This document shows positions 3,988-28,930 of a DNA stretch of 31,083 bases, in pieces (within the stretch, counting starts at the first letter, position 1; each line of letters begins with the position of its first letter). Source of the stretch: a virus. Location of the stretch: positions 1-31,083 of IMG/VR virus record IMGVR_UViG_3300009169_000064, one strand, 5' to 3'. The translations under genes and the position numbers were made by a program. A model generated the notes under the pieces. That model searched no databases, was not told the DNA's origin, and was given only the letters and a program-made list of their open reading frames with translations.

Positions 3988-3998
3988 CTTTTTTTTTA
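3972..3998 (+). terminator. Strong intrinsic terminator closing the first operon
   Basis: A perfect 6-bp stem, GCTATC (3972-3977) with GATAGC (3983-3988), around the loop TAAAC, is followed by about ten T. It overlaps the last codons of the small ORF at 3856. A new promoter follows directly, so this is an operon boundary. Confidence 0.85.
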
Positions 3999-4494: not shown

Positions 4495-5207
4495 TGGTAA
4501 TATTATTCGATGCAGATAGCTTGGTTTATTCCAGCTGCTACAGAAAAAAAGAAAATGAAACAGACGAACAATTCTATACTAATATAGATGATGCAACTGC
4601 TAAATTTGACGAAGTGTTTATGTCTATTGTAAATTATTTAGAGGACATTTACGAAATTAACGAAGTAAAAGTATTTTCAGGTTCACGTGGTAACTTTAGA
4701 AAGTTTATAACACCAACTTATAAAGCAAACAGAAACTATAATGATTTACCTCCTTTGTTAAATGAAATGCATACATACGTTAAAGAACAATATAATTCTA
4801 TTTCAGGTTATGGTGTAGAAACAGATGATGTAGTTGCGAAATACTGGTATGAGTTATCTAATACAATAGGTAGAAACAATGTTATAATAGTATCAATAGA
4901 TAAAGATTACAAACAGTTTCCAGCATTGATTTATAATTACCATTATAAACATAAATGCATTTACGATATAAGCGAAAAAGAAGCTATATATAATTTTTAT
5001 GAACAAATGATTATTGGTGATGGTGCAGATAATGTAAACTATTGCAAAGGTTATGGTAAAAAGTATGCAGAAAAGTATTTAAAAGATTGTAAAACACAAT
5101 ACCAATATACAAAAAAGGTTTACGAATTATTTAAAACAATACACAAAGGAAAAGCAAAACAACGCTATATTGAGTGCTGGAACTTATTAACACTAAAAAC
5201 AAACTAA
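4494..5207 (+). CDS. 5'-3' exonuclease / flap endonuclease (T5 exonuclease family)
   Basis: A 237-residue protein with the acidic metal-binding motifs of the FEN family in order: FDADS (5-9), FRKFITPTYKANR (68-80, the arch/basic motif), GVETDDVVA (107-115), SIDKDYKQF (134-142) and GDGADNV (175-181) leading into the helix-hairpin-helix-like KGYGKKYAEKYL. These enzymes remove 5' flaps and RNA primers and resect DNA ends. The length is slightly below T5 exonuclease (about 290) because the C-terminus is short. It is coupled to the downstream ABC-GNAT gene by TAATG, so the two are probably translated together. High confidence for family. Confidence 0.88.
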   Translation: MVILFDADSLVYSSCYRKKENETDEQFYTNIDDATAKFDEVFMSIVNYLEDIYEINEVKVFSGSRGNFRKFITPTYKANRNYNDLPPLLNEMHTYVKEQYNSISGYGVETDDVVAKYWYELSNTIGRNNVIIVSIDKDYKQFPALIYNYHYKHKCIYDISEKEAIYNFYEQMIIGDGADNVNYCKGYGKKYAEKYLKDCKTQYQYTKKVYELFKTIHKGKAKQRYIECWNLLTLKTN

Positions 5208-6382
5208 TGAAAATAAATTTAACACATAAAATAAACAACGATAAATATACAGAATATATTTATGAAGCATTTGATATACAAAATAAAGAACAATCAAATG
5301 TAATAGTAGAAGCTAATTTAGAACATTTACCAAAAGAATGGAATATTGGTGTTGTTTATGGTGGTTCTGGAACAGGTAAAACAACTATATTAAAAAACTA
5401 TTTCAAAAAAGAAATGGACAAATCATATTTTGATAATTCAAAATCTTTAATAAGTAACTTTGATTGGTTAGAACCTAAAGATGCTACATTTTTATTATCT
5501 GCTATGGGTTTAAGTTCTGTTCCAACTTGGTTGAGACCATTTAATACTTTATCGAATGGTGAACAATACAGAGCAAACCTTGCTTATATCGTAGGAAGTG
5601 CGTCAGAAAACGAAGTAATTTTAATTGATGAATATACTTCAGTAGTGGATAGAGATGTTGCAAAAGCAATGAGTAATGCATTACAAAAATATATTAGAAG
5701 AACAAACAAAAAAATTGTACTTGCATCTTGTCATTTTGATATAATGGAATGGTTACAACCTGATTGGATTTATTCACCATCTAAAGGGCGTCTTGAAATA
5801 GCGTCACAACTTCGGCAACCAAGAATTGAACTTCAGATATTTCGATGTAGATATGAAACTTGGAAATTATTCAAACAACATCACTATTTAAGTGAAGAAC
5901 TTAATTTAGCTGCTAAATGTTATGTAATTACTTTTAATGATAAACCTTGTGCATTTATAGCAATATTACCAATGCCAAGTGGAACAGTTCAAAATGCTTA
6001 TAGAATTTCAAGATTGGTTGTATTACCTGATTTTCAAGGGTTAAGTATTGGAATTAAATTATTAAATTATTTTGGTTCTTTATATTTAACTGACAACAAA
6101 ACTTTATATATTAAAACTTCCAATCCATCTTTATTTAAAGGAATGGAATATAATAAAAAATATTGGAAATTATCAAGAGAAGAAAATAATATTCAGCAAA
6201 TAAAAAAGACTAATAAAAAACTTATTGATGATGGAAAAGATAATGGAATGAAGTTATTAAAAGAAAGCATAACAAAATCTTATAAATACATTGGAGAACT
6301 TTCAAAAGATAATTTATCAATAATAAAATTCAAAACAGAAGTTTATAGAGATGTTGCACAAAATCAAATATCAATGTTTTAA
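5207..6382 (+). CDS. ABC-type ATPase fused to a GNAT acetyltransferase-like domain
   Basis: A 391-residue protein. I chose the start at 5207 because it forms TAATG with the FEN stop; an upstream in-frame TTG at 5174 would lie inside FEN. Residues 1-200 form a compact ABC ATPase: Walker A GGSGTGKT (52-59), signature LSNGEQ (115-120), Walker B VILIDE (137-142) and an H-loop His (176, ASCHF). Residues about 215-325 form a GNAT fold: HHYLSEELNLAAKCYV, then ISRLVVLPDFQGLSIG (267-282), the acetyl-CoA-binding motif. That motif has Ser280 where QGLGIG usually has Gly. The C-terminal 60 residues are Lys-rich. This domain pair matches the COG2401 description (ABC-type ATPase fused to acetyltransferase). 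The GNAT part also recalls the Mom DNA-modification family, so nucleic acid modification is possible, but the substrate is unknown. Confidence 0.8.
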   Translation: MKINLTHKINNDKYTEYIYEAFDIQNKEQSNVIVEANLEHLPKEWNIGVVYGGSGTGKTTILKNYFKKEMDKSYFDNSKSLISNFDWLEPKDATFLLSAMGLSSVPTWLRPFNTLSNGEQYRANLAYIVGSASENEVILIDEYTSVVDRDVAKAMSNALQKYIRRTNKKIVLASCHFDIMEWLQPDWIYSPSKGRLEIASQLRQPRIELQIFRCRYETWKLFKQHHYLSEELNLAAKCYVITFNDKPCAFIAILPMPSGTVQNAYRISRLVVLPDFQGLSIGIKLLNYFGSLYLTDNKTLYIKTSNPSLFKGMEYNKKYWKLSREENNIQQIKKTNKKLIDDGKDNGMKLLKESITKSYKYIGELSKDNLSIIKFKTEVYRDVAQNQISMF

Positions 6383-8515: not shown

Positions 8516-9682
8516 ATGGAGTTTATAGTTACTACTGCAATTAAAAAGTTATTGCGTTTAAAACAACGTATTAAAGTTATTAGAGGTGGAACATCAGCTG
8601 GTAAAACATTTGGTATTCTACCTTTGTTAATTGATAAAGCAATAAAAGAACCAATGCTTGAAATAAGTGTTGTATCTGAATCTATTCCACATTTACGTAG
8701 AGGAGCATTAAAAGACTTTTTAAAAATTATAATGACACTTGGTAGATATAAAGATGAACAGTTTAACAAATCTACTTTAAAATATACATTTGCAAACGGA
8801 AGTTATATTGAGTTCTTTTCTGTAGACCAGCCAGACAAATTAAGAGGTGCAAGGCGTAACATTCTTTACGTTAATGAGTGTAATAATATAGATTTTGATT
8901 CTTATTATCAAATGGCTATTAGAACATCTGGTGATATATGGTTAGATTATAATCCTGCTTCAACTTTTTGGGTTGATAAAGAAATATTAACACAATCAAA
9001 CGTTGATTTTATAACATTAACTTATTTAGATAATGAAGCATTATCAGATACTATTATAAAAGAAATAGAATCAGCAAAAGTAAAAGCATTAACATCTACA
9101 TATTGGGCAAACTGGTGGCAAGTATATGGACTTGGACAAACAGGAAGTTTAGAAGGTGTATGTATTACAGATTGGAATGAAATAGATTTACCACAAGAAG
9201 CAAGAATATTATGTTATGGAATGGATTTTGGATACAGTAATGACCCTACAAGTTTAGTAGCAATGTATAAATATAATGATGCTTACATATTTGATGAAGT
9301 AATTTATAAGAAAGGATTGTTAAATAGTGAAATATCAAATCTATTAAAAGCAAATGAAGTTAAAGATATTGTTTATGCAGATAGTGCTGAACCAAAATCA
9401 ATAGCTGAATTAAATCAATATGGACATAATGTATTACCAGTATCAAAAGGAAAAGATTCAATCTTATATGGCTTGAATTTAATAAATCAAAACAAAGTAT
9501 ATATTACATCAAGAAGTAAGAACTTAATAAACGAATTAAGAAACTACATTTGGCTTACAGATAAAACAGGTGTAAAGATGAATAAGCCTATTGATTCTTA
9601 CAATCACGCAATAGATGCAATGCGGTATGCTATAATGAGTCAATTAGAAAAACCAAACAAAGGAAATTACTTTATATATTAA
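8516..9682 (+). CDS. terL: Terminase large subunit (packaging ATPase/nuclease)
   Basis: A 388-residue protein with both TerL activities. ATPase: Walker A GGTSAGKT (24-31) and Walker B ILYVNE (116-121), where Asn stands in for the usual Asp before the catalytic Glu. Nuclease (RNase H fold): MDFGYSNDP with Asp237, VYADSAEP with Asp289, and NHAIDAMRY with Asp367. The order, spacing and length fit the Terminase_6/PBSX-like group. It docks on the portal and pumps and cuts the concatemeric genome. It follows the candidate small subunit by 11 bases. High confidence. Confidence 0.95.
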   Translation: MEFIVTTAIKKLLRLKQRIKVIRGGTSAGKTFGILPLLIDKAIKEPMLEISVVSESIPHLRRGALKDFLKIIMTLGRYKDEQFNKSTLKYTFANGSYIEFFSVDQPDKLRGARRNILYVNECNNIDFDSYYQMAIRTSGDIWLDYNPASTFWVDKEILTQSNVDFITLTYLDNEALSDTIIKEIESAKVKALTSTYWANWWQVYGLGQTGSLEGVCITDWNEIDLPQEARILCYGMDFGYSNDPTSLVAMYKYNDAYIFDEVIYKKGLLNSEISNLLKANEVKDIVYADSAEPKSIAELNQYGHNVLPVSKGKDSILYGLNLINQNKVYITSRSKNLINELRNYIWLTDKTGVKMNKPIDSYNHAIDAMRYAIMSQLEKPNKGNYFIY

Positions 9683-9904: not shown

Positions 9905-10150
9905 ATGAAAACAACTAAAGAAACAGTAACAGTAAACTATTTAGGATTTAATTTTGATTTAACAGGTAATTATACAAGTGAAGAACCTATGGTTATGTAT
10001 TACAAAGATGGAAGTGGATATCCAGGAAGTAGTGCAGAATTTGAAATAACAGATGTAAGTTTATGCGGAATAGATGCAGAAGAATTAATAAACAGATTAG
10101 ATGCTTGGGAAGAATTAGCTTTATTAGCTGTTGAATATATTACTAACTAA
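9905..10150 (+). CDS. Conserved hypothetical acidic protein (81 aa)
   Basis: Begins MKTTKETVTVNYLGFNFDL. The core (GYPGSSAEFEITDVSLCG, residues 39-56) and acidic tail (AWEELALLAVEYI) match a small phage family I recall in several hosts, often annotated only as hypothetical. It stands directly behind a strong promoter, suggesting high early expression. Function unknown. Confidence 0.65.
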   Translation: MKTTKETVTVNYLGFNFDLTGNYTSEEPMVMYYKDGSGYPGSSAEFEITDVSLCGIDAEELINRLDAWEELALLAVEYITN

Positions 10151-10160
10151 AAAAACAAAT

Positions 10161-11036
10161 ATGAATAATTGGAAAGAATTTGATGCATATATTTTAGATT
10201 TAAAAAACAAACATTTTAACAATACAGAATTAGCTAAAGAATTATTTCCAAATGGAAGTTTTAAAGACATTGAAAATTTACGCAAATACATATCACGTAA
10301 ACGCAAATACAACGATTTTAAACCATTAAAAACTAAAAGTAATATAAACACATACAAAACAAAAATAGAACCTTTTAAAGGTGATTTAAATAACATTTTA
10401 ATTATAGGTGATTTACACGCTCCATTTACTTTACCAAAATATTTAAAGTTTTGTAGACAACAACAAGAACTATATAATTGTGGTACTGTAATATTTATTG
10501 GTGATATTATTGATAATCATTATAGTTCATATCACGAATCAGACCCTGATGGATATAGTGCAGGAGAAGAATTAGATAGGGCAATAGATATGATTTCAGA
10601 TTGGTATTATACATTTCCTAAAGCTACAGTTATAATAGGAAACCACGATAGATTAGTTTATAGAAAAGCATATAGTTCAGGAGTTAGTAAACGATGGATA
10701 CGAGAATATAAAGATGTTTTAAATACAGCTGATTGGAACTTTGTAGAAAACATAGAACTGTTTAGTGTTAATTTCAATCACGGAGAAGGTGGTACTGCAA
10801 TGAATAGAATAAAAACAGAATTACAATCACAAGTTCAAGGACATTTGCATACAGAATTATATGTTAAATATTTAGTAGGTGCTAATTTTATTGTTTATGG
10901 AATGCAAGTAGGTTGTGGTGTAGATATTAAATCATATGCAATGGCATACGGTAAGAATTTTAAAAAGAGTGCTATTGGTTGTGGTGTTGTTTTAAATAGT
11001 GGAACATTACCTATTGCTATTCCAATGAAAATGTAA
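10161..11036 (+). CDS. Calcineurin-like metallophosphoesterase with N-terminal DNA-binding-like region
   Basis: A 291-residue protein; the ATG at 10161 is preferred because the in-frame start at 10131 would overlap the previous gene. Metal-binding motifs appear in order: GDLHAP (83-88), GDIIDNH (114-120), GNHDR (160-164), His207 (NFNHGEGG) and GHLHTE (227-232). Residues 1-50 (NTELAKELFPNGSFKDIEN, then RKYISRKRK) look like a helix-turn-helix with a basic tail. Phage enzymes of this type may be nucleases or phosphatases; the substrate is not readable. It lies between terminase and tail genes and is followed by a structured terminator region. Family certain, role unknown. Confidence 0.85.
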   Translation: MNNWKEFDAYILDLKNKHFNNTELAKELFPNGSFKDIENLRKYISRKRKYNDFKPLKTKSNINTYKTKIEPFKGDLNNILIIGDLHAPFTLPKYLKFCRQQQELYNCGTVIFIGDIIDNHYSSYHESDPDGYSAGEELDRAIDMISDWYYTFPKATVIIGNHDRLVYRKAYSSGVSKRWIREYKDVLNTADWNFVENIELFSVNFNHGEGGTAMNRIKTELQSQVQGHLHTELYVKYLVGANFIVYGMQVGCGVDIKSYAMAYGKNFKKSAIGCGVVLNSGTLPIAIPMKM

Positions 11037-11163: not shown

Positions 11164-11844
11164 ATGAAATTAAAAATAACAGTACCAAATAAATTATCTG
11201 AAATAAATTTATTACAGTATCAAAAGTTTTTATCTATTGCTAAAGACAATGAAGATTCAGAATTTTTACATCAAAAGATGGTTCAGATATTTTGTGGAAT
11301 AGATTTAAAAGAAGTAGCACAAATTAAATATAAAGATGTAGCTGAAATAACAACTACTATTAGTACTATGTTTAATGTTAATCATAAACATATACCAACG
11401 TTTAAAATGGGTGGAGTTGAATTTGGATTTATTCCTAATTTAGATGAAATGACATTTGGAGAATATACAGATTTGGATACATACATAACTGATTGGGATA
11501 ATATGCATAAAGCAATGGCTGTTTTATATAGACCTATTACAAAAAAAGGTTTAAACAATACATATGAAATTGAAGAGTACAAAGGTAGTGCAACTTATTC
11601 AGATGTAATGAAACATATTCCATTAGATGTTTGTTTAGGTGCAACGGTTTTTTTTTACAGTTTAGGCAACGAATTATTGAAAGCTACGATTCACTATTTG
11701 GAGAACAACAAGGAGATTCAGGATATTCTGCAACATCAAACTTTGGAATTAAATGGGGTTGGTATAGTTCAATCTATGCTATTGCTCAAGGAGACCTTAA
11801 CAGATTTGACGCAGTTACAAGATTACAGATTCATCAATGCCTAA
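11164..11844 (+). CDS. Tail-assembly chaperone, 0-frame product (gpG-like)
   Basis: A 226-residue protein starting at the ATG at 11164; the longer frame from a GTG at 11074 would run through the terminator and is rejected. The N-terminal half (LKITVPNKLSEINLLQYQKF) is typical of tail chaperones in Bacteroidota phages. Codon 164 lies on a nine-T run (11648-11656). The 62 residues beyond it (for example LKATIHYLENNKEIQDIL and LLLKETLTDLTQLQ) look like genuine protein, although the same DNA is also read in the -1 frame. As in lambda gpG, this form is probably the abundant one that coats the tape measure during tail assembly. It is not part of the virion in known cases. Confidence 0.78.
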   Translation: MKLKITVPNKLSEINLLQYQKFLSIAKDNEDSEFLHQKMVQIFCGIDLKEVAQIKYKDVAEITTTISTMFNVNHKHIPTFKMGGVEFGFIPNLDEMTFGEYTDLDTYITDWDNMHKAMAVLYRPITKKGLNNTYEIEEYKGSATYSDVMKHIPLDVCLGATVFFYSLGNELLKATIHYLENNKEIQDILQHQTLELNGVGIVQSMLLLKETLTDLTQLQDYRFINA

Positions 11845-11912
11845 CATATTTGACATTTGAAAAAGAAAAAAATAAAATAGAATCAGATTTAATTAAAAGA
11901 CAAAATAAATGA
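11164..11912 (+). CDS. Tail-assembly chaperone, -1 frameshift product (gpGT-like)
   Basis: A -1 shift on the T run after codon 164 joins an 85-residue extension read from 11655, giving about 249 residues. The extension contains SNFGIKWGWYSSIYAIAQGD and FEKEKNKIESDLIK, which resemble T-domains of flavobacterial phages. Its stop TGA (11910-11912) overlaps the ATG of the next gene, as expected if this frame is translated and coupled. The -1 frame has no good start of its own near the T run. In lambda, the T extension recruits tail tube protein to the tape measure-chaperone complex. The stretch 11656-11844 would be coding in both frames. Confidence 0.75.
11648..11656 (+). promoter_or_regulatory. 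Programmed -1 frameshift slippery site (T9)
   Basis: In the 0 frame the codons are GTT TTT TTT TAC, so T-TTT-TTT is a perfect X-XXY-YYZ heptamer with identical re-pairing. It is the only plausible switch point joining the chaperone N-terminus to the -1 extension. Confidence 0.75.
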
Positions 11913-12364
11913 CATCACATTATTACGAAATAACACAAGCAATTAAAGACCAATTAAAGGAAGATTTATTTGTAAATACAGTTACTATTGGAGATATATT
12001 TAAAGTTGATTTAAACAAGCTTACAATCTTTCCTTTGTCACATATTATGATAAATTCAGCAACGTATCAAGGTCCAACTTGGATTTATAATGTTTCTATT
12101 TTATGTATGGACGTAGTAGATGAAAGTAAAGAACTAACTACAGATATATTTTTAGGAAACGATAACGAACAAGATGTGTTAAACACTCAACTAATGGTTG
12201 CAAATAGATTTTTAGAAGTATTAAGACGTGGAAATATGTCTGAAGATTATGAATTATCAGGAACACCAACAGTTGAATTTTTTGTAGAAAGATTTGAAAA
12301 CAAATTAGCTGGTATAACTTTAACTTTTGATATTGTTATACAAAATGAAATGACGAAATGTTAG
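11909..12364 (+). CDS. Putative tail terminator / tail completion protein
   Basis: A 151-residue protein. It begins MTSHYYEITQAIKDQLKEDL and includes HIMINSATYQGPTWIYNVSI and NTQLMVANRFLEVL, an alpha/beta layout (N-terminal helix, beta sheet, helix, strand) like small proteins that cap the tail or join head and tail. It is coupled to the frameshifted chaperone by ATGA and overlaps a gp10-like gene, the usual neighbour. No motif proves the role. Confidence 0.5.
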   Translation: MTSHYYEITQAIKDQLKEDLFVNTVTIGDIFKVDLNKLTIFPLSHIMINSATYQGPTWIYNVSILCMDVVDESKELTTDIFLGNDNEQDVLNTQLMVANRFLEVLRRGNMSEDYELSGTPTVEFFVERFENKLAGITLTFDIVIQNEMTKC

Positions 12365-16108: not shown

Positions 16109-16254
16109 TAAAACACATTTTAGATTTATTAGCATTAGATGAATTCTACGGACAAAGTGAATTGATTGAAATAGCAAAAGGAAAACATAAAAGAATAACA
16201 ACTTTTAAAGAAGGATTTAAACAATTAAAAAGACAATTAAAATGGCTGAAGTAA
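16105..16254 (+). CDS. Small basic helical protein (49 aa)
   Basis: The ATGA overlap with the tail-tip gene and a 13-base overlap with the tape measure gene make it part of the coupled series. The product begins MIKHILDLLALDEFYGQSEL and ends in a Lys-rich amphipathic helix. Unknown function. Confidence 0.5.
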   Translation: MIKHILDLLALDEFYGQSELIEIAKGKHKRITTFKEGFKQLKRQLKWLK

Positions 16255-18002
16255 AAGTTATAGAAGTACAAATAAAATCAAATTTAGATGAAACTAATAA
16301 TGATGTTTCTAAATTAAAAACTAATCTTAAAACCGCCACTAATGAAGCTAAAGACTTTGACAAAGCTATTGGAAGTAAAAAGGGAGCAAGTTTTACAGAA
16401 TTAAAAGATAGCATTGGTGGTTTAGTTCCTGGATTTGATAAAGCAAGTACAGGTGCTAATTCATTTAATAAACAGCTTTTATTATTAGTCGCTAACCCTA
16501 TTGGTGCTGTAGTTGCAGCAGTTGTTTTAGCAGTAGTAGGTTTAGTTGCTATATTTAAAACATTTCAACCTGTAGTAGATAAAGTAGAACAATCTGTTGC
16601 TGCGCTTGGTGCTGTTTTAAATGTAATTAAAAATACTTTTATAGCAGTTTTTACTGGAACTAAAAGTTTAGGACAAGCATTTAGCGGTTTAGGTAGTGAT
16701 ATGAGTTCTGCAGCAAAGCGAACAATGGAACTTGTAAAAGCACAACAAGATTTAGAAGATGTTTTAGCACAACAAGAAGTCCAAACTTCAAGAACAAGAG
16801 CAGAAATAAATAAATTAAATGTACAAGCAAAAAATAGAGCATTATCAGAAGAAGAACGTTTAAAATTATTGCAAAGAGCAAGTGCATTAGAAAACCAAGA
16901 TTTTTTACAAAGACGTAAAAATGCAGATGAACAAGTTAGACAAGCACGTGAAGCAATCGCAATAAAAGCTGGGTTTAGTAAAGCTGAAATAAAACAATTA
17001 AAAGAACAAGGGTTAGCAGCAAAAGAATTAGCAGAAAGCAAAGGGGGTAATTTTGATGAAGAATTTAAAATATTAGCAAATGCTCAAAAAAATAGAATTG
17101 GATTAGAAGATGAATCAACTGCAAATTTAGAAAAAAATCAGAATAAGCAAGATGCACTTTTTGATGCACAACAAGCCAAAAGAGAAAGTCAAGCGGCAGC
17201 AGCTAAAGCAAGACAAGAAAAAATAGATGCTGATAGAATAAAAAATGAAGAAAAAGCAATTTCAGATAGAAAAGCATATTTAGAAAAAGCTAATTTAGTT
17301 GAAGAAGAATTTAATTTAAATGCTGTAGGTACAGAACAACAAAGAAAAGATGCTAATATTTTAGCAATGCAAAATGACTTATCTAAAAAAGTTGAAATAC
17401 AAGCACAAAATACAGCTAATGAAAAAGAACAATCAGAAATAAGGATAAGAATAGCAGAAGCTGAAGCACAACAAAAGAAAGATATTCAAAATGCTGGTTT
17501 TGCATTAGCTGATGGAGCAGTTAATTTTTTAAAACAAATAGCAGGTAAAAATAAGGCAATACAAAAAGCAGCTATAATAGCTGAAAATGCAATAGGTATT
17601 GGTAAAATGATTATTGCAAATAATGCTGCTAATATTGGTGCATTAGCAACTCCACAAGCTATATTAACATCAGGAGCAAGTGCAATTCCAGTAATAGCAA
17701 TGAATAATATAACAACCGCATTAGGTGTAGCAACTACAATAGCTTCAACTGCTAAAGCATTGTCTGCAGTAGGTGGTGGTAGTGCTGGTTCCGCTCCAAG
17801 TGTTGGTGGAAGAGGTGGTAGTTCAAATACAAGTATGACACCACCAGCATTTAACGTTGTAGGTGCAAGTTCAACAAATCAATTAGCGCAAACAATAGGT
17901 AACCAACAAAATCAACCAATTAAGGCTTATGTAGTAGCAAATGATGTTACAACCCAACAAGGTTTAGATAGAAATATAGTTAAATCTGCTACAATAGGAT
18001 AA
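16242..18002 (+). CDS. Tape measure protein
   Basis: A 586-residue protein. The features of a tape measure are present: an N-terminal variable helix, a strongly hydrophobic segment (79-106, LLLLVANPIGAVVAAVVLAV and on), a long coiled coil rich in Gln, Lys, Glu and Ala (about 150-425), a second alanine-rich segment (about 440-520), and a Gly/Ser-rich linker near residues 508-530. The protein sets tail length and passes with DNA into the host. By the usual 1.5 angstrom per residue rule the tail would be about 90 nm; this is an estimate. It is the last gene of the tail block before the head genes. Confidence 0.88.
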   Translation: MAEVKVIEVQIKSNLDETNNDVSKLKTNLKTATNEAKDFDKAIGSKKGASFTELKDSIGGLVPGFDKASTGANSFNKQLLLLVANPIGAVVAAVVLAVVGLVAIFKTFQPVVDKVEQSVAALGAVLNVIKNTFIAVFTGTKSLGQAFSGLGSDMSSAAKRTMELVKAQQDLEDVLAQQEVQTSRTRAEINKLNVQAKNRALSEEERLKLLQRASALENQDFLQRRKNADEQVRQAREAIAIKAGFSKAEIKQLKEQGLAAKELAESKGGNFDEEFKILANAQKNRIGLEDESTANLEKNQNKQDALFDAQQAKRESQAAAAKARQEKIDADRIKNEEKAISDRKAYLEKANLVEEEFNLNAVGTEQQRKDANILAMQNDLSKKVEIQAQNTANEKEQSEIRIRIAEAEAQQKKDIQNAGFALADGAVNFLKQIAGKNKAIQKAAIIAENAIGIGKMIIANNAANIGALATPQAILTSGASAIPVIAMNNITTALGVATTIASTAKALSAVGGGSAGSAPSVGGRGGSSNTSMTPPAFNVVGASSTNQLAQTIGNQQNQPIKAYVVANDVTTQQGLDRNIVKSATIG

Positions 18003-21870: not shown

Positions 21871-21906
21871 AAAAGGGTATGCTTTAATTAGTGTACCTTT
21901 TTTTTT
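21871..21906 (+). terminator. Terminator after the tube-like pair
   Basis: GGTATGC (21876-21882) pairs with GTGTACC (21891-21897) through two G-T pairs, closed by AAA/TTT flanks, with loop TTTAATTA and a run of nine T. The loop is identical to that of the terminator at 29354-29384. Confidence 0.78.
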
Positions 21907-28753: not shown

Positions 28754-28930
28754 TAATTAAACATAACTTTTTCTAAAATTTTTGTTTTTTATTTATTTTT
28801 TTTAAATATTTATTTTAATTTATTTTTTTATATTTATTTTAGTTTTTAAAACATTACAAATTTACGGTTTTTTTTTGACAAAATTGCAATATTTTAAATT
28901 TATTTATTGTATAGTAATGTTAATAAAGTA
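28754..28930 (+). other. Extremely AT-rich, T-dominated intergenic region
   Basis: The gap between the lysis genes and ninG is almost free of G and C; on the + strand it is dominated by long T runs (28773-28860 and 28867-28876). No ORF, clear hairpin or tRNA is seen. It could act as a terminator-like region for lysis transcripts or as an easily melted origin region. Confidence 0.4.

Follow-up and report, generated by a model that had tools for sequence, protein, structure and literature searches.

A G/GT-like gene with a putative -1 frameshift and a long overlap under selection in both frames in probable flavobacterial phages

Frameshifted tail chaperones are already known, and their 0-frame ends have been published as short. 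In lambda, a small tail gene lies upstream of the tape measure gene, and a -1 shift close to its end gives a minority product with a T extension; the roles of G and GT have been reviewed (PMC5009743). In published chaperones, the mean distance from the slip site to the in-frame stop is 26 nt (SEA-PHAGES) or 36 nt (Xu et al. set) (PMC10885494). According to the authors of PRFect, distances above 30 nt and low GC are behind most of the chaperone shifts which their tool missed (PMC10885494). Hence, genes such as the one described here will probably be missed.

Shigella mxiE undergoes transcriptional slippage at a homopolymer of nine A or T. In Thermus dnaX, transcriptional slippage likewise occurs at a homopolymer of nine (PMC5009743).

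The window, i.e., the whole stretch of DNA analysed here, is IMG/VR virus record IMGVR_UViG_3300009169_000064 with a length of 31,083 nt and a GC content of 26.5%. Judged by sequence, it holds a long-overlap variant of the known G/GT frameshift, which is real, conserved, and selected in both frames. As in lambda, a small gene is predicted to give a minority product with a T extension by a -1 shift close to its end; a tape measure candidate lies downstream, with four ORFs between. Unlike in published chaperones, the distance to the 0-frame stop is 146-287 nt in the large majority of the family, and both frames are selected. Also unlike lambda G/GT, the slip site is T9 or A_AAT_TTT, and there is no sequence family match.

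The Nonlabens phages P12024S and P12024L (Inhavirus) share homologous G and T domains with the window, the same T9, and a T domain in the -1 frame. In contrast to the window, their 0-frame tail is merely 77 nt long after T9, and their chaperone gene directly follows the terminase, whereas a metallophosphoesterase gene lies between the two in the window. In the deposited records, G and part of T appear as separate hypothetical proteins (genes 38/39 of P12024S and 40/41 of P12024L; our loci L082 and L083, 2501-3195), and neither record carries a frameshift annotation.

In the literature searched, which largely lacks subscription journals, we came across no account of chaperone ends with long dual coding. 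Here, most members of a diverse flavobacterial phage family retain about 50-95 codons in two frames. Such a long selected overlap implies that the G-only product has a functional end of its own, which is absent from the lambda model. The family also offers a large natural alignment on which selection in two frames can be measured, and its natural exchange of slip sites could separate ribosomal from polymerase slippage.

Anatomy of the locus and proposed expression

The features of the gene are as follows (window coordinates).

11164..11844, plus strand: 0-frame ORF (G-type product) with ATG at 11164 and TAA at 11842-11844; 226 aa, including a 62-codon tail after the slip site
11648..11656, plus strand: slip site T9 with the 0-frame reading GTT TTT TTT TAC; T_TTT_TTT is in register at 11649-11655
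11655..11912, plus strand: -1 frame T-type extension; first codon TTA at 11655, 85 codons, then TGA at 11910-11912
11657..11844, plus strand: dual-coded stretch of 188 nt (62 codons) with purifying selection in both frames
11909..12364, plus strand: next ORF, whose ATG overlaps the TGA of the -1 frame (ATGA)

The initial annotation had described T9, the two open frames, and the -1 stop overlapping the next ATG, and its positions and descriptions are correct. Further T9 runs of the window are found only at 3989-3997, 21898-21906, and 28868-28876, and these are located outside plus-strand ORFs of at least 50 aa.

We consider it probable that the gene encodes a tail-assembly chaperone of the G/GT type, belongs to a flavobacterial tailed phage, and relies on ribosomal slippage. 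Most ribosomes would stay in the 0 frame and produce G (226 aa), with its last 62 residues encoded past the slip site. A minority would slip by -1 at T_TTT_TTT within T9 and produce GT with a predicted length of 249 aa (164 + 85), in which the first 164 residues are common with G and are followed by a helical T domain of 85 residues. If lambda is a guide, G would cover the tape measure protein, with T bringing in the tail tube protein. Functional protein would be specified in both frames by the 188 nt past the slip site; hence, two products with different selected C-termini would arise from the same DNA.

Relatives, slip site, and the agent of the proposed frame change

A first scan yielded 80 close relatives with 70-91% identity. 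As 0-frame peptides could enter its query, further scans took as query either just the portion of G that precedes the slip site or just the -1 domain. All 80 close relatives have the exact T9 and a full-length 0-frame ORF with a tail of 53-62 codons; their -1 frame is open for 82-85 codons wherever the contig is long enough, and the ATGA-type junction with the next ORF is found in close relatives as well. The combined scans gave 347 loci with both domains, not all of them independent because some contigs were fetched more than once. Two error-prone records were set aside, leaving 345 usable loci. By HMM, the -1 frame holds the T domain next to the G domain in 346/347 loci; the sole exception, a long-read plasmid record, has an indel. 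The slip site is present in 345/345 usable loci; this conserved -1 site joins two overlapping ORFs, as in G/GT-type genes.

The -1 T extension is conserved as far as Nonlabens phage P12024S/L, and the median identity of G between lineages is 41% (89 lineages). T9 is not a metagenome artefact since both cultured Nonlabens phages and the isolate genome of Flagellimonas onchidii (L248, with 212 nt of 0-frame tail) carry it. Besides the Nonlabens phages and F. onchidii, relatives are found in a Flavobacterium MAG and a Bacteroidetes MAG. Hence, the hosts of the gene family are probably Bacteroidota, mainly Flavobacteriaceae.

A run of at least nine Ts is found in 330 of the 345 usable loci, including the window (T9 in 319, T10 in 10, and T12 in 1), and T7 or T8 sites in none of them. 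The long run occurs in all three codon phases. The remaining 15 loci (L185, L249-L262) have A_AAT_TTT at the same position and no T run longer than four. The canonical heptamer X_XXY_YYZ is, thus, given either by A_AAT_TTT or by T_TTT_TTT, the latter being in register in every phase checked. The codon before A_AAT_TTT varies (GTA, ATA, GCA), and its final A is always kept; elsewhere in these genes, AAT and AAC are used about equally (49:53). Two representatives of the A_AAT_TTT loci group together (support 0.996) and are nested among T9 lineages, with weak support for the deeper nodes on the path (0.435-0.572). Tandem ribosomal slippage predicts just such a change from a homopolymer to a slip heptamer of two codons; this subclade, therefore, favours ribosomal over polymerase slippage, while T9 members could use either.

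A serious but rather unlikely possibility is that RNA polymerase slips at T9, so that mRNAs with T10 (or T7) are translated normally into GT and the ribosome shifts only in the A_AAT_TTT subclade; the dual coding and the two products would be the same. Polymerase slippage is possible for the T9 members because T7 and T8 sites, which would indicate that the heptamer by itself suffices, are absent outside two error-prone records. It is also consistent with the three codon phases of the run and the tolerance of T10 and T12, and nine Ts slip efficiently in bacteria and are a known length for polymerase slippage (PMC5009743). Related loci totalling 1.1 Mb contain 167 T9 runs, and as 151 of these are the slip site, T9 seems to be avoided elsewhere, which fits this reading too. 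The same holds for downstream RNA structure, which has no excess stability (mean z about 0.2 for 70-nt windows at several offsets in 62 lineages). Against polymerase slippage stand the 15 loci within the T9 lineages, which use a canonical heptamer and no homopolymer, and the in-register T_TTT_TTT which every T9 phase also holds. The family resembles mxiE and dnaX in its nine-base homopolymer, in having no obvious stimulator, and in an extended product from a frame that is reached by one inserted base. Unlike these genes, it has one subclade without the homopolymer.

We regard it as unlikely that two chaperones with alternative functional C-terminal domains arise from one DNA by RNA polymerase slippage on T9 in most lineages and by ribosomal slippage on A_AAT_TTT in one clade.

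The two error-prone records are 66-67 kb "plasmids" of Lysinibacillus (L244, CP045836.1) and Escherichia fergusonii (L245, NZ_CP040811.1), each with two matches to the family. They are 99.7% identical over 2 kb and have broken short ORFs and T8/T7 where T9 is expected. Both look like head-to-tail dimers of one flavobacterial phage of about 33 kb with long-read errors and are probable contaminants filed as plasmids. We, therefore, read their T8 and T7 sites as long-read homopolymer errors and not as genuine slip sites.

Gene neighbourhood and protein models

The genes around the locus which bear on its assignment are the following.

8516..9682, plus strand: terminase large subunit (phrog_2, E 1.9e-37; Pfam Terminase_3C), upstream of the chaperone gene
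10131-11036: gene for a metallophosphoesterase (phrog_221, E 2.3e-53), flanked by the large terminase and the chaperone gene
16242..18002, plus strand: putative tape measure protein (phrog_1538, E 4.8e-10), downstream in the same gene block

The neighbourhood also holds capsid-protease and portal genes. A 402-aa ORF at 5174-6382 has an AAA/ABC-type ATPase region and a GNAT acetyltransferase region.

The AF2 model of G has a mean pLDDT of 83.7. A helix at residues 154-181 runs through the slip site; helices 183-195 and 201-216 come next, with lower confidence. T is modelled as a helical domain (pLDDT 84.0), and both C-termini are predicted to be helical. With VIA-align, the HK97 tail chaperone 2ob9 aligns to G residues 1-74 (Z 4.0, rmsd 3.7), a weak match, as unrelated rows score similarly; T has no match. 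A Foldseek search against the PDB gave nothing significant for G or T. Pfam has no family for the G/T pair, and PHROGs places G in phrog_32199, a family of unknown function, and has none for T. Flavobacterium phage 6H came up through a weak fold match (BFVD), but we set it aside, as no clear -1 slip site is seen in it.

The initial annotation had proposed a tail chaperone with a -1 frameshift. The proposed frameshift is supported by the conserved slip site and the selected -1 frame; the chaperone role is likely, given the G/GT-like design, the nearby tail genes, and, more weakly, the fold match to the HK97 chaperone. The order of large terminase, phosphoesterase, and then a G/GT-like gene is not the usual tail order, and the pair may, therefore, be some other structural gene with a frameshift rather than a tail chaperone, which we consider improbable. 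The missing Pfam or named PHROG family, the position directly after the terminase in the Nonlabens phages, and the four ORFs before the tape measure candidate are in line with such a gene. The G/GT-like design, the tape measure match downstream in the same block, and the VIA match of the N-terminal part to the HK97 chaperone argue against it and for the tail chaperone.

Length of the 0-frame tail and selection in both frames

We define the tail length as the distance in nt from the slip site to the 0-frame stop. In all but 15 of the 345 usable loci, it is 146-287 nt, and in the A_AAT_TTT subclade 243-246 nt. The long tail is almost universal among the loci which were fetched without the 0-frame tail as a criterion. 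The exceptions are seven loci with 50 nt, five with 77 nt, and three with 95, 113, and 116 nt. The 12 loci with 50 or 77 nt are Nonlabens-like, and their representatives group with the Nonlabens phages in a single clade that sits on a long branch (support 1.0). The initial annotation had named early stops of homologues in the 0 frame as a point against its own proposal; such stops are found in this clade and in three further loci. The long tail is, therefore, a feature of the large majority and not of every member. The claim that the overlap is far longer than in lambda G/GT agrees with the 146-287 nt measured here as compared with the means of 26-36 nt in published chaperones.

Codon-position entropy was compared along the gene in the close clade. 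For 0-frame positions 1/2/3, it is 0.18/0.11/0.66 in the G-only part, 0.30/0.38/0.39 in the overlap, and 0.06/0.32/0.11 in the T-only part past the 0-frame stop. Variation is, thus, found at the 0-frame wobble position upstream of the overlap and at the -1 wobble position after the 0-frame stop, and it is even across positions within the overlap. The pattern in the overlap is intermediate or lowered in most other groups, including the A_AAT_TTT subclade.

In a recoding null, the -1 protein was kept, codons were drawn from the usage of the family, and we recorded how far the 0 frame stays open. For 62 lineages, the median opening is 19 nt versus 185 nt observed (mean P 0.024). For 89 lineages (less than 70% identical), the mean P is 0.035, and P is below 0.05 in 74/89; these probabilities were not multiplied because the lineages share ancestry. 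The residues of the 0 frame are conserved as well, with a mean BLOSUM score of 1.06 versus 0.576 ± 0.031 in a null with stops avoided. One 0-frame position, at which the -1 residue (mostly Ala) leaves the wobble free, is Leu in 49/60 lineages (z 16).

Both frames are under selection, which we state with high confidence. Two-frame coding over some 190 bases, as claimed from the window, holds up in that both frames are conserved over 89 lineages and the codon-position and recoding tests show selection. The suggested comparison of homologues in both frames gave the same answer, with even entropy in the overlap and 0-frame residues conserved beyond the constraint of the -1 frame. It is very improbable that only the -1 frame matters and that the 0 frame past T9 is open as a side effect of codon choice in the -1 frame and yields an inert tail: the stops after 50-77 nt in Nonlabens-like phages and a -1 wobble as variable in the overlap as in the T-only part would fit, but the recoding null rarely keeps the 0 frame open as far as observed, and the 0-frame residues, such as the Leu above, are conserved in excess.

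The dual-coded stretch can be even longer than in the window. In 57/324 complete loci, the 0-frame stop is at most 12 nt from the -1 stop or lies past it, and practically the entire T extension is, hence, dual-coded in these loci.
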